Source: Lactobacillus sp. (lineage in GTDB: Bacteria > Bacillota > Bacilli > Lactobacillales > Lactobacillaceae). From it: a DNA stretch of 64,000 bases. The notes under the pieces are model-generated. The model made no database searches. It saw only the letters and a list, made by a program, of their open reading frames with translations, and was not told where the DNA came from. The position numbers and the translations under genes are program-made. Shown piece after piece: positions 52,119 to 58,661 of this stretch (position 1 is its first letter; the number at the start of each line of letters is the position of its first letter). The stretch covers positions 52,398-116,397 of the forward strand of contig JAUMUC010000005.1 of NCBI GenBank assembly GCA_030530865.1, given 5' to 3'.

Positions 52119-53252
52119 GTGAGGGGAATCGTAAAATACATAGTAGAACTAATTATTTTAGCGATTGCTTTGCTACTAATTGGTCTAGGTGCATTTTTTG
52201 GATATCACTGGTATGAAAATTATCAATTCAAAAAACATCGACCACAGATTGTCATGCAAGGTAATACGAATATTAGTCCTGCTTTTCAAACAGACAAGAT
52301 ATATAAGAAGAGACTTAATCGCGATTACGATTTCATTTTCAGAGTTTCCTATTTAACTCCACCTAAGACATGGGATGGATATAATGCGGTAATTCCAGGC
52401 TTACGTGCAACTAAAGCTTACGATTTTGAAAAGAAAAAGTACACTCAAACAGACACGATGACGCCTCAAGGGATAACGATTGCTGGTAAATTCTTGTTAA
52501 TTACGGCATATGATGGTGAGCACAAACGTAACTCAGTCATTTATGTATTAGATAAGAAAACAAATAAATTTATCAAAACGATCCAAGTCCCTAAAAAACC
52601 TCACCTGGGTGGAATTACTTATGATCCGGTGGCCAAGAATATTTGGATAACTGGTTCAGTTGGTGGAAAATCAGCTCTTCAGTCATTTTCAATGAAAAGC
52701 TTAAAAGCTTATCCCAAGAAGAGTTTGATACCTATTCAATATAATCACACAGTGATCATTCCTTCGATGCCCAAAGCATCAACTGTCACATATTATGGTG
52801 GAAATTTATTAGTTGGTTATTTTGATTTAAGAAAAAGAGGTACAGTTTCTTCCTTTAGAATATCTCGTTCTGGAAAGTACAAGAATTCGATTGGTGTGAA
52901 GGAGGTCGCTACAAAAACTGGTAACGCAATTTATTCAGATCCTGATGGACAAACTAGCATGGATGAGAAGATTCAAGGAATCGCGGTTTATGATGATAAG
53001 ATTTTCTTAAGTCAGTCATATGGGAGCCAGAGTTCCAAGCTGTATGTTTTCCCAATTTCGGCGATCAATGCCTTAAGTGAGCAAAACGCTGAGTTGGTAA
53101 TAAAAATGCCACCTTATTTGGAACAAATTACGGCTTATAAAGGCCAACTTTTATGTATTTTTGAATCTGCAGCAAGTCAGTATGCAAATCCAGATATAGT
53201 GATCATGGATCGCATATTATCAATGAACATCAACGGTTTGTTTAGTAAGTAG
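52119..53252 (+). CDS. Membrane-anchored extracytoplasmic protein, probable beta-propeller, upstream of dlt
   Basis: I recognise no named family with certainty. The 377-residue protein has one N-terminal membrane segment (about 8-30) and a large extracytoplasmic part with recurring beta-rich blades (MTPQGITIAGKFLLITAYDG, HLGGITYDPVAKNIWITGS, EKIQGIAVYDDKIFLSQSYG), which looks like a YncE/SMP-30-type propeller. The start is GTG at 52119, with AAAGGAG 8 bases before. Only 68 bases separate it from dltX and no terminator lies between, so it is likely expressed with dltXABCD. A scaffold or ligand-sensing role for teichoic acid modification is a guess. Confidence 0.7.
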   Translation: MRGIVKYIVELIILAIALLLIGLGAFFGYHWYENYQFKKHRPQIVMQGNTNISPAFQTDKIYKKRLNRDYDFIFRVSYLTPPKTWDGYNAVIPGLRATKAYDFEKKKYTQTDTMTPQGITIAGKFLLITAYDGEHKRNSVIYVLDKKTNKFIKTIQVPKKPHLGGITYDPVAKNIWITGSVGGKSALQSFSMKSLKAYPKKSLIPIQYNHTVIIPSMPKASTVTYYGGNLLVGYFDLRKRGTVSSFRISRSGKYKNSIGVKEVATKTGNAIYSDPDGQTSMDEKIQGIAVYDDKIFLSQSYGSQSSKLYVFPISAINALSEQNAELVIKMPPYLEQITAYKGQLLCIFESAASQYANPDIVIMDRILSMNINGLFSK

Positions 53253-53320
53253 AAGCTAATTTTACAATTGTGTTACAAAATGGTATCATTTCACAGTATA
53301 GAAAAGGCGAGGATGGTTCG

Positions 53321-53467
53321 ATGACAGAAAAAACTCAAAACAGAAGTCATGGAATTGGCATGTTTGCTCTTAAAACAGTGTGTTACGCGTTAATTCTGTT
53401 AGGCTTATTATACTTATATCAATATAGTGGACTTTCATCTGTACACTTTATTTACAACGAATTTTAA
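53321..53467 (+). CDS. dltX: Teichoic acid D-alanylation protein DltX
   Basis: A 48-residue single-pass membrane protein that takes part in passing D-alanine to teichoic acid. The central hydrophobic helix (FALKTVCYALILLGLLYLYQ, about 14-33) and the C-terminal FIYNEF, the conserved end of DltX, identify it. The ATG at 53321 follows GGCGAGGATGG; the frame extends upstream to 53270 but into non-conserved sequence. It is placed directly before dltA, as in other Firmicutes. Confidence 0.93.
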   Translation: MTEKTQNRSHGIGMFALKTVCYALILLGLLYLYQYSGLSSVHFIYNEF

Positions 53468-53493: not shown

Positions 53494-55005
53494 ATGATTA
53501 TTAAAGATGTAATCAAGAGCATTGATCAAATTGCTGAAAAAGATCCCAGTCGCGTTTGCTACGACTACTTGGGTGAAACAAGTACATATGGTGAATTAAA
53601 GGCACGTTCAGATGCATGGGCTAGTTACATTGCTAGTAGCAATGTCCCAGCTGGTGAACCTATCTTAATTTGGGGTGACCAAAGCTTTGAAATGGTTGCT
53701 AGTTTTTTAGGATGCGTAAAAAGTGGACATGCATATGTGCCGATAGCTAGTTATTCAAATGCTGAAAGATTAACTTTGATTCAAGAAGTTTCAGAGGCTA
53801 GCTTTGTAATCGCAATTAATGATTTACCTGATGTTGACCTCTCAAAGTTAACTGTGCTTAAGCCTAGTGCAGTTACTGATGGAGCAAGTGTTTCTGAAGA
53901 TAGCTTTGTTGAAGGTGATGAAAACTACTACATCATCTTTACTTCAGGAACTACAGGTAAGCCAAAAGGTGTACAAATCAGCCATGACAACTTATTAAGC
54001 TTTATTAATTGGGAATTGAAAGACTTCAAATTGCCAGAACATCCTGCATTTTTGGCACAAGCACCTTACTCATTTGACTTGTCAGTTATGAGCTTATATC
54101 CAGCTTTAGTAACTGGTGGTAAGTTGGTTGTTTTGCCTCATGAAGTTTGCGAAAACTTTGGTAAATTGTTCCAAGTTTTACCAACAATTGACTTTAATGT
54201 CTGGGTTTCTACACCTTCATTTGCTCAATTATGCTTCTTAGATAAGACTTTTGATTCAGAACATCACCCTGAATTGACTCACTTCTTATTCTGTGGTGAA
54301 GAATTACCTCATAGTGAAGTTGATACTTTGAAGAGTCGTTTCCCAGGATCACATATTTTCAACACTTATGGACCAACTGAAGCAACGGTTGCTGTAACCC
54401 AAGTTGAAATCACAGATGAAATCTTGGCTAAATATGACCGTTTGCCAATTGGTATAGCTAAGGAAGATACCATTATCACTATTGATGAAAGTTCTGGTGA
54501 AAAGCCAGGCGAAGGTGAAATCCTATTGAATGGTCCAAGTGTTTCAAAGGGTTACTTGAACAATCCTGAAAAGACCGAGGCTGCCTTTTTCAAGGGAAAA
54601 AATGGTTATCAAAGTTATCGCACTGGGGATGCAGGTTTCTTAGATAGAGACATGCTATTCTACCGTGGACGAATTGACTTCCAAATCAAGTTTAACGGTT
54701 ACCGAATCGAACTTGAAGAAATCAACTTCTACTTAAGTAAGAACGAATTCGTACGTTACGGAGTTGTAGCTCCTAAGTACGACAAGGATCATAAGGTTAA
54801 GCAATTAATCGCCCAAATCGAATTAAATGATGGCGTGTTAGACAATCACACTGAAAAGGAAGTTACTGCATCAATCCGCAAAGACTTAACTGAAAACGTG
54901 ATGCCTTACATGATGCCACAAAGATTTGTCTTTAGAGACGCTTTACCAATCAGTCAAAACGGTAAAGTAGACATTAAGGCGGTTATTAGCGAGGTGAATA
55001 GCTAG
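53494..55005 (+). CDS. dltA: D-alanine-carrier protein ligase DltA
   Basis: Adenylates D-alanine and loads it onto the carrier DltC in the cytoplasm. The 503 residues carry the AMP-binding P-loop YYIIFTSGTTGKPKG, FNTYGPTEATVAV, the YRTGDAG hinge region and the C-terminal catalytic lysine in ISQNGKVDIKAV. AGAGGGAT precedes the ATG. The stop overlaps the start of dltB by one base. Confidence 0.97.
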   Translation: MIIKDVIKSIDQIAEKDPSRVCYDYLGETSTYGELKARSDAWASYIASSNVPAGEPILIWGDQSFEMVASFLGCVKSGHAYVPIASYSNAERLTLIQEVSEASFVIAINDLPDVDLSKLTVLKPSAVTDGASVSEDSFVEGDENYYIIFTSGTTGKPKGVQISHDNLLSFINWELKDFKLPEHPAFLAQAPYSFDLSVMSLYPALVTGGKLVVLPHEVCENFGKLFQVLPTIDFNVWVSTPSFAQLCFLDKTFDSEHHPELTHFLFCGEELPHSEVDTLKSRFPGSHIFNTYGPTEATVAVTQVEITDEILAKYDRLPIGIAKEDTIITIDESSGEKPGEGEILLNGPSVSKGYLNNPEKTEAAFFKGKNGYQSYRTGDAGFLDRDMLFYRGRIDFQIKFNGYRIELEEINFYLSKNEFVRYGVVAPKYDKDHKVKQLIAQIELNDGVLDNHTEKEVTASIRKDLTENVMPYMMPQRFVFRDALPISQNGKVDIKAVISEVNS

Positions 55006-56231
55006 TGATTAATTTGCAACCTTATTCTAATCCGCAATATTTTATCTATTTATTATTGGCATTATGCCCAATCATGATCGGATTATACTTTGGAAAACGT
55101 TTTGTTCATTATGAAGCAATCTTTTCATTCGTTTTCCTAGTATTAACTTTTGGAGGAGACCATTGGCAACAAGGGGTCTTCTTAATAGGATATCTGATCT
55201 ATCAATGCTTGATTACTTTTATTTATCAGCATTATCGAAAAGCAGGCAACAACAGTACCGGTATCTTTTGCTTGTTCGTCATTCTTGCAATTTTGCCACT
55301 AACGGCAAGTAAGGTGACCGCAGCAATGCCAAGCAAGACGGTACCATTTGTTGTGGGATTTTTAGGACTTTCTTACATCACTTTCAAATCGGTACAAGTG
55401 ATTATGGAATTGCGTGATGGTACAATTAAAGAGGTTAATCCAGAGATTTATCTGAGATTCTTGCTCTTTTTCCCAACAATTTCATCAGGACCGATCGATA
55501 GATACCGTAGATTTGCCAAGGACTTTACTAAAGCCCCTGAAAGATCAGCCTATCTAGATGATCTTGAAATTGGTGTGAGATACCTATTCCAAGGATTTTT
55601 ATATAAATTCATTTTGGGTTGGCTATTTGGTACACACTGGTTGCCAGAAATCGAAAGAATGGCTCTGGCAGTCGGAAATGCCAATGGTGGACTTAAACTT
55701 TCATGGTGGGTAGTGCTTTACATGTACTGCTACTCAATGTATCTATTCTTTGACTTTGCTGGATATTCATTGTTTGCTGTTTCAATTTCTTACTTTATGG
55801 GAATTAAGACGCCAATGAACTTCAACAAGCCATTTAGTTCACCAAATATCAAAGAATTCTGGAACCGTTGGCACATTACTTTGTCATACTGGTTCAGAGA
55901 CTTTATCTACATGCGATTCACTTTCTGGTCCATGAAGAAAAAGTTGATCAAGAACAGAATTCGTTTATCACAAGTCGCATACCTTGTTGACTTCCTAGTA
56001 ATGGGTTTTTGGCATGGATTAACTTGGTACTACATTGTTTATGGTATCTACCACGCTTTAGCCATCATTATCAATGATATTTGGTTACGATTTAAGAAAA
56101 AGCATAAGGGTCAGCTTCCACAAAATCAATTTACTAAGTGGCTGGCAATAGTAATTACTTTCCACGTGGTTTGCTTCAGTTTCTTAATTTTCTCAGGCTT
56201 CTTAAGCAAGCTATGGTTCGGATGGTTATAA
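55005..56231 (+). CDS. dltB: D-alanyl transfer protein DltB (MBOAT family)
   Basis: Multi-pass membrane acyltransferase that takes D-alanine from DltC and moves it across the membrane. The 408 residues form about 11-12 helices, with the MBOAT core (NIKEFWNRWHITLSYWFRDF) and the catalytic histidine in GFWHGLTWYYIVYG (about residue 336). The start is GTG at 55005, immediately overlapping the dltA stop. dltC begins 14 bases after. Confidence 0.97.
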   Translation: MINLQPYSNPQYFIYLLLALCPIMIGLYFGKRFVHYEAIFSFVFLVLTFGGDHWQQGVFLIGYLIYQCLITFIYQHYRKAGNNSTGIFCLFVILAILPLTASKVTAAMPSKTVPFVVGFLGLSYITFKSVQVIMELRDGTIKEVNPEIYLRFLLFFPTISSGPIDRYRRFAKDFTKAPERSAYLDDLEIGVRYLFQGFLYKFILGWLFGTHWLPEIERMALAVGNANGGLKLSWWVVLYMYCYSMYLFFDFAGYSLFAVSISYFMGIKTPMNFNKPFSSPNIKEFWNRWHITLSYWFRDFIYMRFTFWSMKKKLIKNRIRLSQVAYLVDFLVMGFWHGLTWYYIVYGIYHALAIIINDIWLRFKKKHKGQLPQNQFTKWLAIVITFHVVCFSFLIFSGFLSKLWFGWL

Positions 56232-56245
56232 TTTAGGAGGATATT

Positions 56246-56485
56246 ATGGACGTAAAAGCAACTGTATTAAGCATTTTAGAAGATTTAACAGGTGAAGATT
56301 TATCAAGCAAGATGGATGAAAATATTTTTGATTCAGGTTTGCTCGATTCAATGGCAAGTGTACAAATGTTATTAAACATTCAAGAAGAACTTGACGTTGA
56401 AGTTCCAGTATCAGAATTTGACCGTGAAGAATGGTCAACTCTAAATAAGATTATTGCAAAGGTAGAGAGCTTGAAGAATGACTAA
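56246..56485 (+). CDS. dltC: D-alanyl carrier protein DltC
   Basis: Acyl-carrier-like protein of 79 residues that holds D-alanine on a phosphopantetheine arm. The attachment site is Ser35 in DSGLLDSMASV. AGGAGGAT precedes the ATG. It overlaps the start of the next gene by 8 bases, which couples their translation. Confidence 0.97.
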   Translation: MDVKATVLSILEDLTGEDLSSKMDENIFDSGLLDSMASVQMLLNIQEELDVEVPVSEFDREEWSTLNKIIAKVESLKND

Positions 56486-58661
56486 TAAACAAAGACTTTG
56501 GCACATTTTTGGTCCTGTAATTTGTGCGATTGTCTTGGTTCTTGGAATTCTCCAAATTCCATGGGATCGGACTTTTAGTAAAGAGTCCATTTTCCAAGCT
56601 GCAAACTCACAATCTACGACCATTTTTAAAGGTGTACAAATGAAAAGGGATGCTTTCGCTTATGGCTATGTCCCTTTTTATGGATCTAGTGAATTATCAA
56701 GATTTGATGCTTTGCACCCAAGTGTGTTGGCTTACAAGTATCACCGTAAGTACAAGCCATTTCTTTTAGGTGGACCTGGTAGTCAATCATTAGCCCAATT
56801 TATCGGCATGCAAGGTACCGAATCACAATTAAAGAATAAAAAAGCAGTGATGATTATTTCACCACAATGGTTTACAAAACAAGGTCAAAATCCAATGGCC
56901 TTCCAATTGTATTACTCACCATTGGAAACAATCCTCTTTGCTTTAAATGCCAAAAATACCGTGGCTGATAGATATGCAGCTAAGCGTCTTTTAACCATGC
57001 CATCAGTTAGAGGTAGCATTAAAGACGCATTAGTGAGTGTCTCAAAGGGACAAAAGATCAATTCATTCACTAAATTTGTCATCAAGAGAAAGTTAGCAAT
57101 GCTTTCTAGTGAAGATAATTTCTTCAGTGCATGGCAATTACGTGATCGAATCGATTTAATTAAGAGAAAGGCAAAAGAATTGCCTACGCCTTACTCAGCA
57201 GCTAAGCTAGATCGACTTGGCTTTAAGTTGGGTAAAAAGCATACAACTTCAAACAAGTTTGGTATTAACAACCGCTTCTACAGAACTCGTTTTACTAAGA
57301 GCATCCTTAAGAAGTTGAAGGGAAGCCAAAAGAAGTTTGACTATGTTAAATCACCAGAATATGGTGACTTTGAATTAGTTTTGACTAAATTTGCTTCTCA
57401 AGGTACTAATGTTCAATTTGTGATTCCACCAGTAAACCACAAATGGGCTAAGTACACTGGCCTGTCAATGAAGATGTATGAAACTTCAGTTGCTAAGATT
57501 AAGCGTCAATTGACTACTCAAGGATTTACTAACGTTCTTGACTTAAGTCACTACGGTAAAAAGAAATACTTCATGGAAGATACCATCCACATTGGTTGGC
57601 GTGGTTGGGCTAAGATGGATCAAACCATTCGTGCATTCATGAAGCAACCTAATAAAGCACAACATTACAAGTTGAGCAATTACTACTTCACTAAGAAGTG
57701 GGCTAATAAGCGTAATGTCTCAATGCCTTTTTATGAAAATAAAAAGAATATTAAGGACAAGCAATTAGTTGCTAAACTTAAGAAGACTGGCTTTAACGGT
57801 GAATTTTACATTGTAAAAAATGGAAAGTTTTTAGGAGAATTTAGTTCTCAAAAGACTTTTTCAAATATGTATCTGGTTAACTCTGTGCAAAAGTCAATGA
57901 CTGCTGCCATGGTAATGAAACAGATCCAAAACAAGAAGCTTAGTCTTTCAACTAAACTTGCTAAGTTTTATCCAAATATTCCAGGCAGCAATAAAGTTAC
58001 CATTAACAATTTGTTGAATATGACCTCAGGTTTAGTAATCAAGTCTGTGGATACTAATTATTCTTCAGATGCGAAAACAATTGAGTTTGATGCAAATCAT
58101 ACTAAATTCAATTCAAAATTGTATGGTAAATGGAATTACACATCATTGAACTATGTTTTATTGAGTGGAATTCTTTCTAAGTTGACCCATAAGAGTTATG
58201 AAAAACTCTTTACCCAAACATTTATTGATCGACTTAACCTTAAGAATACTGAGTTCTTATGGAATTTAAATCAAAATGACAATTTCCAAGCCGGTAGTGA
58301 GTTTGGAAATAAGGTTAGCCTCAAGACGGCTATTTTAGCAGCACATAATGACTTAGGAGCTGGCTCTGTTGTCATGAGTTCAGCAGACCTAGCCAAGGTT
58401 GAAAAAGATATCTTATCTGGTAGTTGGTTATCTGATAAGACTCGTTCACAAATCTTTTTGGATAATGCAACTTATTCAGCTGGTTTATACAATGAAGGAC
58501 TTTTCCGCTCAGCTAACGGTGCAGGCTCAGGCTTCTACACCTTCTTGAGAATTAGTCCTGATGGCAAAACTGTCTTAGTTGCACAGACAAATTCTGTTCA
58601 AGCAGGTTTCAGTACTTTGAAACTTCAAATGGATGGAATTATAAAATATCTTTTAAAATGA
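56478..58661 (+). CDS. dltD: DltD fused to a C-terminal serine hydrolase (beta-lactamase/DltE-like) domain
   Basis: A 727-residue protein, about 300 residues longer than ordinary DltD. Residues 1-415 are DltD: a membrane anchor (8-27), the catalytic serine motif GSSELS (69-74) and the DTIHIGWRGW stretch with its Asp-His pair (368-371). From about 430 to the end a second extracytoplasmic enzyme follows in the same frame. It has SVQK (469-472, an SxxK nucleophile), NNLLNMTSGLV (510-520), NYTSLNYVLLSG (553-564, a YxN-like motif) and ANGAGSGF (679-686) where the H/KxG motif should be. This is the class C beta-lactamase/D,D-peptidase fold, which also includes the D-alanyl esterase DltE (PbpX2) of L. 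plantarum. Confidence 0.9.
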   Translation: MTNKQRLWHIFGPVICAIVLVLGILQIPWDRTFSKESIFQAANSQSTTIFKGVQMKRDAFAYGYVPFYGSSELSRFDALHPSVLAYKYHRKYKPFLLGGPGSQSLAQFIGMQGTESQLKNKKAVMIISPQWFTKQGQNPMAFQLYYSPLETILFALNAKNTVADRYAAKRLLTMPSVRGSIKDALVSVSKGQKINSFTKFVIKRKLAMLSSEDNFFSAWQLRDRIDLIKRKAKELPTPYSAAKLDRLGFKLGKKHTTSNKFGINNRFYRTRFTKSILKKLKGSQKKFDYVKSPEYGDFELVLTKFASQGTNVQFVIPPVNHKWAKYTGLSMKMYETSVAKIKRQLTTQGFTNVLDLSHYGKKKYFMEDTIHIGWRGWAKMDQTIRAFMKQPNKAQHYKLSNYYFTKKWANKRNVSMPFYENKKNIKDKQLVAKLKKTGFNGEFYIVKNGKFLGEFSSQKTFSNMYLVNSVQKSMTAAMVMKQIQNKKLSLSTKLAKFYPNIPGSNKVTINNLLNMTSGLVIKSVDTNYSSDAKTIEFDANHTKFNSKLYGKWNYTSLNYVLLSGILSKLTHKSYEKLFTQTFIDRLNLKNTEFLWNLNQNDNFQAGSEFGNKVSLKTAILAAHNDLGAGSVVMSSADLAKVEKDILSGSWLSDKTRSQIFLDNATYSAGLYNEGLFRSANGAGSGFYTFLRISPDGKTVLVAQTNSVQAGFSTLKLQMDGIIKYLLK

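Follow-up and report, generated by a model that had tools for sequence, protein, structure and literature searches.

We report a gene in a 64,000-nucleotide (nt) stretch of a Lactobacillus sp. genome (contig JAUMUC010000005.1; hereafter the window) that joins dltD in-frame to the coding sequence of a DltE-like serine hydrolase. From a comparison of dltD loci, we consider it probable that the window carries the hard-wired form of a DltD-DltE fusion that most of the other sampled Lactobacillus make by a predicted programmed -1 ribosomal frameshift at the end of dltD. In the fused protein, the DltD step, which is the attachment of D-alanine (D-Ala) to lipoteichoic acid (LTA) together with DltB and DltX, and the DltE step, which is the removal of D-Ala, would share a single polypeptide, in a constant 1:1 ratio.

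The DltD-DltE fusion gene and its second domain

The fusion gene and its parts are located in the window as follows.

56478..58661, + strand: dltD::dltE fusion open reading frame, ATG start, 727 residues, no internal stop
56496..56552 (about residues 7-25), + strand: N-terminal membrane anchor common to both domains, from a hydropathy scan
56604..57644 (residues 43-389), + strand: DltD domain (Pfam; NCBIfam TIGR04092; PDB 7dxm, 6pfx, 6o93 and 3bma)
56682..56693 (residues 69-72), + strand: GSSE motif of DltD
57579..57590 (residues 368-371), + strand: DTIH, the Asp/His motif of DltD
57687..57770 (about residues 404-431), + strand: linker, from alignment with the virtual -1 products of unfused relatives
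57753..58658 (about residues 426-727), + strand: predicted DltE-like serine esterase domain (PDB 8agr; PF00144)
57882..57893 (residues 469-472), + strand: SVQK with Ser469 and Lys472, aligned to Ser128 and Lys131 of DltE
58134..58145, + strand: NYTS with Tyr554, aligned to Tyr213 of DltE
58488..58490, + strand: Tyr671, aligned to the ligand-contacting Tyr338 of DltE
58515..58526 (residues 680-683), + strand: NGAG, altered third motif, at the place of HGL (347-349) in DltE

Approximately the first 410 residues make up a complete DltD. The Pfam DltD model matches residues 43-389 (E 8.7e-118), the equivalog model TIGR04092 (LTA_DltD) scores 426.9 bits against a cut-off of 150, and the PDB matches of this part are the four DltD structures given above. 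The part carries GSSE, which we take to be the active-site motif of DltD, and an Asp-x-x-His (DxxH) motif that is presumably catalytic as well. The broad superfamily model PF00144 (Beta-lactamase) covers residues 464-708 of the second domain (E 8.2e-28). The open reading frame, Pfam, NCBIfam and PDB agree with the original prediction of a complete DltD and a second domain in a single frame of 727 residues, and the positions it gave for GSSE, DTIH, SVQK and YTS (554-556) were right. Mean hydropathy over 19 residues exceeds 1.6 only in stretches of the fusion that begin at residues 6-14; because the N-terminus alone has the hydrophobicity of a transmembrane segment, both domains are expected to be extracellular on one anchor, and the DltD signal anchor would carry both across the membrane. 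A search of the source genome, which is about 82% complete, found no second DltD. We rejected the possibility that a stop codon had been lost by sequencing error; it is unlikely because the same two parts are fused in-frame in 10 other genomes of the genus, one of which (G038) is truncated where its contig ends.

The second domain was predicted to be DltE-like, and its best solved match is indeed 8agr (E 2e-38 over residues 407-707, and 6.5e-39 in a second comparison), the structure of L. plantarum DltE, labelled ‘Beta-lactamase family protein’ in the PDB. The next match, 5zh8 (FmtA), is far weaker (E 5.3e-10). The class C beta-lactamase model NF033085 gave 29.1 bits against a cut-off of 415, and the third active-site motif reads NGA instead of H/K-x-G. 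The original prediction had taken the GAG at this place as a sign that the domain might be a non-catalytic sensor of teichoic acid or D-Ala (GAG occurs twice in the fusion, at 681-683 and 627-629). In our alignment N680-G681-A682 falls on H347-G348-L349 of DltE, an active esterase whose third motif is likewise not canonical and whose catalytic residues are Ser128, Lys131 and Tyr213, with Tyr338 touching the ligand (PMC10241514). The counterparts of the catalytic residues, Ser469, Lys472 and Tyr554, are the same in all 63 homologues from the genus, and Tyr671 and Gly681 are conserved in 62 of 62 (one of the 63 rows is cut short). The doubt about catalysis that the GAG raised falls away because DltE also has an altered third motif and these residues are invariant; judging from the alignment, the changed motif is no argument for inactivity, and a sensor role is highly improbable. 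The DltE frame has a ratio of nonsynonymous to synonymous substitution rates of 0.025-0.44 in 11 near pairs, at or below 0.12 in nine of them. We infer that the fusion consists of a complete DltD and a DltE-like serine hydrolase, predicted to be a D-Ala-LTA esterase. The proposal that attachment and removal are combined on one anchor stands insofar as a true DltD is joined to a DltE-like domain behind a single anchor, while the sensor reading of the altered motif does not.

Fused and unfused dltD loci in the genus

An initial contig scan with the second domain of the window alone as the query found no relative. We searched 75 Lactobacillus genomes and obtained a match in 72, with dltD in 67 and, on reading the list of matches, weak DltE-like matches only in five. 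The dltD loci of all 67 genomes, the window's own included, were compared. The original prediction had suggested comparing the length and domain content of DltD across Lactobacillus, and this revealed in-frame fusions in 11 of the 67 genomes, including the window. In 51 genomes (52 loci, G033 having two) dltD, about 425-438 amino acids (aa) long, has a separate DltE frame immediately behind it, and G030 holds one fused and one unfused copy. By the names assigned to the genomes, the fused form occurs in L. acetotolerans, L. colini and L. hominis and as a second copy in L. kullabergensis; the unfused form occurs in L. gallinarum, L. kefiranofaciens, L. ultunensis, L. jensenii, L. psittaci, L. 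melliventris and L. helsingborgensis, among others. Six genomes have no DltE beside dltD (G001, G011, G012, G032, which is a contig fragment, G061 and G074), and the second dltD copies in G041 and G057 likewise lack one. Four genomes that form a clade (loci L056, L059, L063 and L071) have dltD with no detectable DltE beside it.

The relation between the two frames of the unfused loci carries the frameshift prediction. The DltE frame is -1 relative to dltD in 49 of the 52 loci, and this -1 frame opens 13-58 nt before the end of the dltD stop. A slippery heptamer of the form XXXYYYZ stands in phase in the last three dltD positions of 47 of the 52 loci, ending 3-9 nt ahead of the end of the stop: TTTAAAA (T_TTA_AAA) in 37, AAAAAAC in eight, and AAAAAAA and AAAAAAG in one each (the locus counted under AAAAAAG, L096, carries TTTAAAA as well). 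The rate within the dltD bodies (104 in 21,564 positions) leads to an expectation of 0.75 loci by chance. At the ends of control genes from the same loci the heptamer was found in none of 50 dltA, none of 50 dltB and four of 51 dltC genes, all four being AAAAAAT. Leu-Lys elsewhere in these dltD genes is written T_TTA_AAA in only two of 163 instances, and the junction heptamer is preceded by seven different codons, all ending in T. Among 32 distinct TTTAAAA junctions, TTTAAAAG, A at position 12, TAGTGCG at 14-20, C at 22 and T at 29 and 38 are invariant, and many positions neighbouring these letters vary.

The virtual -1 product aligns through the junction with the natural fusions: SLKRQ occurs both in unfused L036 and in fused L073, and residues 426-431 of the window protein (KDKQLV) align with (L)KRQLV of unfused relatives. 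Two fused loci nested in a frameshift clade, L077 and L081, keep Leu-Lys and have lost the heptamer (CTA AAA and CTG AAA); in fused L076 (L. acetotolerans) the letters TTTAAAA remain, outside the slippery phase. The window gene is itself a single open frame and so shows no overlap of two frames; it represents the hard-wired form. The linkers of L077, L079 and L081 show that some fused genes carry an in-frame A_AAA_AAG, where a -1 slip could yield a short DltD, the mirror of the usual case.

In none of the 52 loci does the DltE frame encode a hydrophobic export segment (best 19-residue hydropathy ahead of SxxK 0.15-1.19). We propose that in the unfused species the ribosome slips by -1 at the heptamer, a few nt before the dltD stop, in some fraction of translation events, the slip site usually being T_TTA_AAA and in one clade an A-run. 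These species would make plain DltD plus DltD-DltE, with the share bearing the eraser set by the efficiency of slippage; in the window species all DltD would carry it. With DltE attached to DltD, the eraser would sit beside the writer, and the coupling may help redistribute D-Ala along LTA chains. The report that DltB, DltD and DltX form a stable complex (PMC11035591) counts in favour of this proposal.

The gasseri-like clade invites a different mechanism, namely that transcriptional slippage at its A-run of about nine A joins the frames there and ribosomal frameshifting does so elsewhere. Its eight loci read ATA AAA AAA AAC TAG, and a stretch of nine A is reported to act in this way in Thermus dnaX (PMC3711429). 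However, the A_AAA_AAC heptamer stands in phase at the same place in this clade and no A-run as long accompanies TTTAAAA in the other clades, and we regard the explanation as very unlikely.

Evidence against the predicted frameshift and other dltD loci

Several results weigh against a programmed -1 frameshift. A downstream stem-loop is not conserved (mean z -0.38 versus -0.27 in control windows), and RNAalifold gave a consensus energy of 0 for 29 distinct junctions. There is no Shine-Dalgarno-like stimulator upstream (-2.89 versus -2.85 kcal/mol at random sites) and no consistent long-range partner of TAGTGCGCC; the best apparent site for the latter was inconsistent among loci, fell on a Gly-Ala codon pair that is largely conserved, and was dropped. 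Stimulatory elements are not needed in every case of frameshifting, and their absence weakens the claim. Five of the 52 loci have no canonical heptamer, two with DltE in the -1 frame (L046, L084) and three in +1 (L061, L069, L070), and no convincing shift site was seen by eye in the latter three. Among the eight dltD genes that lack a neighbouring DltE, two (L056 and the fragment L108) also end, as read by eye, in an A-run heptamer, which we take as chance. Outside the genus the heptamer stands in the last three positions of four of 39 dltD genes (one locus skipped), three as an A-run and the fourth as AAATTTG, and never as TTTAAAA. The counts are not independent trials because the 52 loci are related. 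In the three +1 loci, one of which is from L. rodentium (L069), the DltE frame has no export segment; possible starts are an ATG in the overlap in L061 and a TTG further in in L069, with none in L070.

The invariant TAGTGCG after the heptamer (for example near position 3956 of L085) seems to exceed coding need. It stands directly at the dltD stop in 40 of the 52 loci and is displaced by TAA in one more, and its GTG is invariant over the 32 distinct junctions although GTG makes up just 23% of the Val codons in these frames; the GTG may therefore be kept for another reason, for example as a restart codon. Termination at TAG and reinitiation at the overlapping GTG (TAGTG) would give a separate DltE, and the window fusion would be incidental. 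Such a product would be without an export signal while its substrate, LTA, is extracellular. No strong Shine-Dalgarno sequence precedes the GTG (mean -3.36 kcal/mol, versus -7.2 at the dltD ATG and -2.85 at random sites). This GTG is missing from the A-run clade, and six of the eight loci of that clade have no ATG, GTG or TTG start near the beginning of the domain. Reinitiation would also leave the in-phase heptamer in 47 of 52 loci unexplained, and we consider it improbable, though less so than the transcriptional mechanism; frameshifting stays the preferred explanation.

In a quick DltD tree, fused and unfused loci are interleaved, with eight changes as the fewest and at least six forced by the starred branches. 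The window groups with L084 and the fusions of G041 and G057 (97, Shimodaira-Hasegawa-like approximate likelihood ratio test). On the other side of the balance, clustering of the fused label is only loose (7 of 500 shuffles were as low), and the tree has long branches, those of the window and of the G041/G057 pair among them; the order within that group is tentative. With somewhat less confidence than in the fusion and frameshift themselves, we favour a genus-wide reading in which one gene would serve two envelope machines at a ribosome-set ratio of DltD to DltD-DltE, with repeated switching between the frameshift-limited and the fully fused form.

The fused copies of G041 and G057 (L073, 6006-8162, + strand; L075, 3073-5229, - strand) have GTSE in place of GSSE. 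No dltB was found in their operon stretch, and both genomes carry a second dltA-dltB-dltD set at another location; the DltD part of these two copies may be just a carrier. In L. kullabergensis (G030), L077 is a hard-wired fusion beside a dltB, with dltA and dltC not found in the stretch, and L049 is an operon of the frameshift type.

The fusion gene of the window follows dltX, dltA, dltB and dltC, in that order.

53270..53467, + strand: dltX, Pfam DltX in residues 28-65 of the frame; the ATG at 53321 is the likelier start
53494..55005, + strand: dltA (NCBIfam)
55005..56231, + strand: dltB (NCBIfam)
56246..56485, + strand: dltC (NCBIfam), overlapping the start of the fusion frame

Upstream of dltX lies a 377-aa gene (52119-53252, + strand) with an N-terminal stretch that appears hydrophobic by eye, and relatives with 44-61% identity occupy the same position in many dlt loci of the genus. 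Pfam and NCBIfam scans gave no match for it. Its PDB matches to antibody light chains cover short stretches only and were taken as spurious.

Beyond the genus, we compared the fusion with 397 genomes of the family; among the matches listed, full-length in-frame matches were found within the genus only. One full-length match from outside it, in G146, proved to be two separate genes. We sampled 40 further family loci, 13 picked because their open frames were long and most of the others to cover a range of genera. None of the 13 long-frame loci, listed matches with open frames of 779-842 aa, is a DltD-DltE fusion, because dltD is short in 12 of them (416-428 aa) and the DltE-like frame is separate in the other (L117), with its own ATG and hydrophobic N-terminus. 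A DltE-like frame lies downstream of dltD on the same strand, in some cases at a distance, in 20 of the 40 loci. All 20 have a hydrophobic N-terminus (1.63-2.72 over the first 60 residues, versus the 0.15-1.19 of the genus; the stretches scored differ somewhat). Because these DltE-like frames keep a hydrophobic N-terminus, it appears, within this sample, to be a trait of the genus that DltE has lost its anchor and become attached to DltD.

Relation to known systems and possible significance

The second domain resembles L. plantarum DltE (formerly PbpX2; 8agr) in its SxxK Ser and Lys, its Tyr, the altered third motif with Gly, the equivalent of Tyr338 and the dlt context. It differs in that L. 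plantarum encodes DltE separately, at the head of the operon pbpX2-dltXABCD, with residues 34-397 used as the extracellular construct (PMC10241514), whereas the domain in the window forms the C-terminal end of the DltD protein and lacks its own anchor. This limits only the claim of the same organisation, since it concerns arrangement and not chemistry. The first domain is like other DltD proteins in being complete, with GSSE and DxxH, in following dltC and in having a single N-terminal anchor, but the window protein runs about 300 residues beyond the plain DltD of the genus. S. aureus FmtA, a D-amino esterase of teichoic acids, belongs to the same fold family; it differs in being encoded apart from dlt and in showing residual interaction with beta-lactams (PMC10241514).

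The in-phase heptamer and the predicted short and long products with a common N-terminus recall dnaX-type -1 frameshifting, in which the longer product seems to be shift-derived in some bacteria (PMC5009743, PMC3711429). The present case differs in concerning a secreted pair of cell-envelope enzymes and in showing neither of the Shine-Dalgarno and stem-loop stimulators. A -1 frameshift in lactobacilli is described for phage A2 of L. casei, in head and tail genes (PMC5009743), which are phage structural genes and not chromosomal ones. The available text of the two frameshifting papers mentions neither dlt or teichoic (PMC3711429) nor dltD or teichoic (PMC5009743). Among the matches listed we found no literature on a DltD-DltE fusion or on dltD frameshifting, although an unnamed prediction in supplementary cluster lists is possible. 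DltD, DltE and -1 frameshifting are each known; their union in one polypeptide, by fusion or slippage across a genus, appeared in none of the literature matches listed. We would expect current annotation of the unfused species to show a serine hydrolase without a signal after dltD.

D-alanylation alters the charge of the cell envelope. In L. plantarum, D-alanylated LTA is a direct cue to the Drosophila host (PMC10241514). The DltE paper points out a discrepancy: DltE removes D-Ala, yet LTA loses about 70% of its D-Ala in a dltE deletion and about 93% in the S128A mutant, and the authors posit control of D-Ala distribution (PMC10241514). The natural joining of DltD to DltE says that both act together. 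If frameshifting sets how much of the joined protein is made, silent mutations could be used to test how DltD and DltE are coupled, and the genus would possess a conserved chromosomal -1 frameshift that sets the ratio of LTA writer to writer-eraser.

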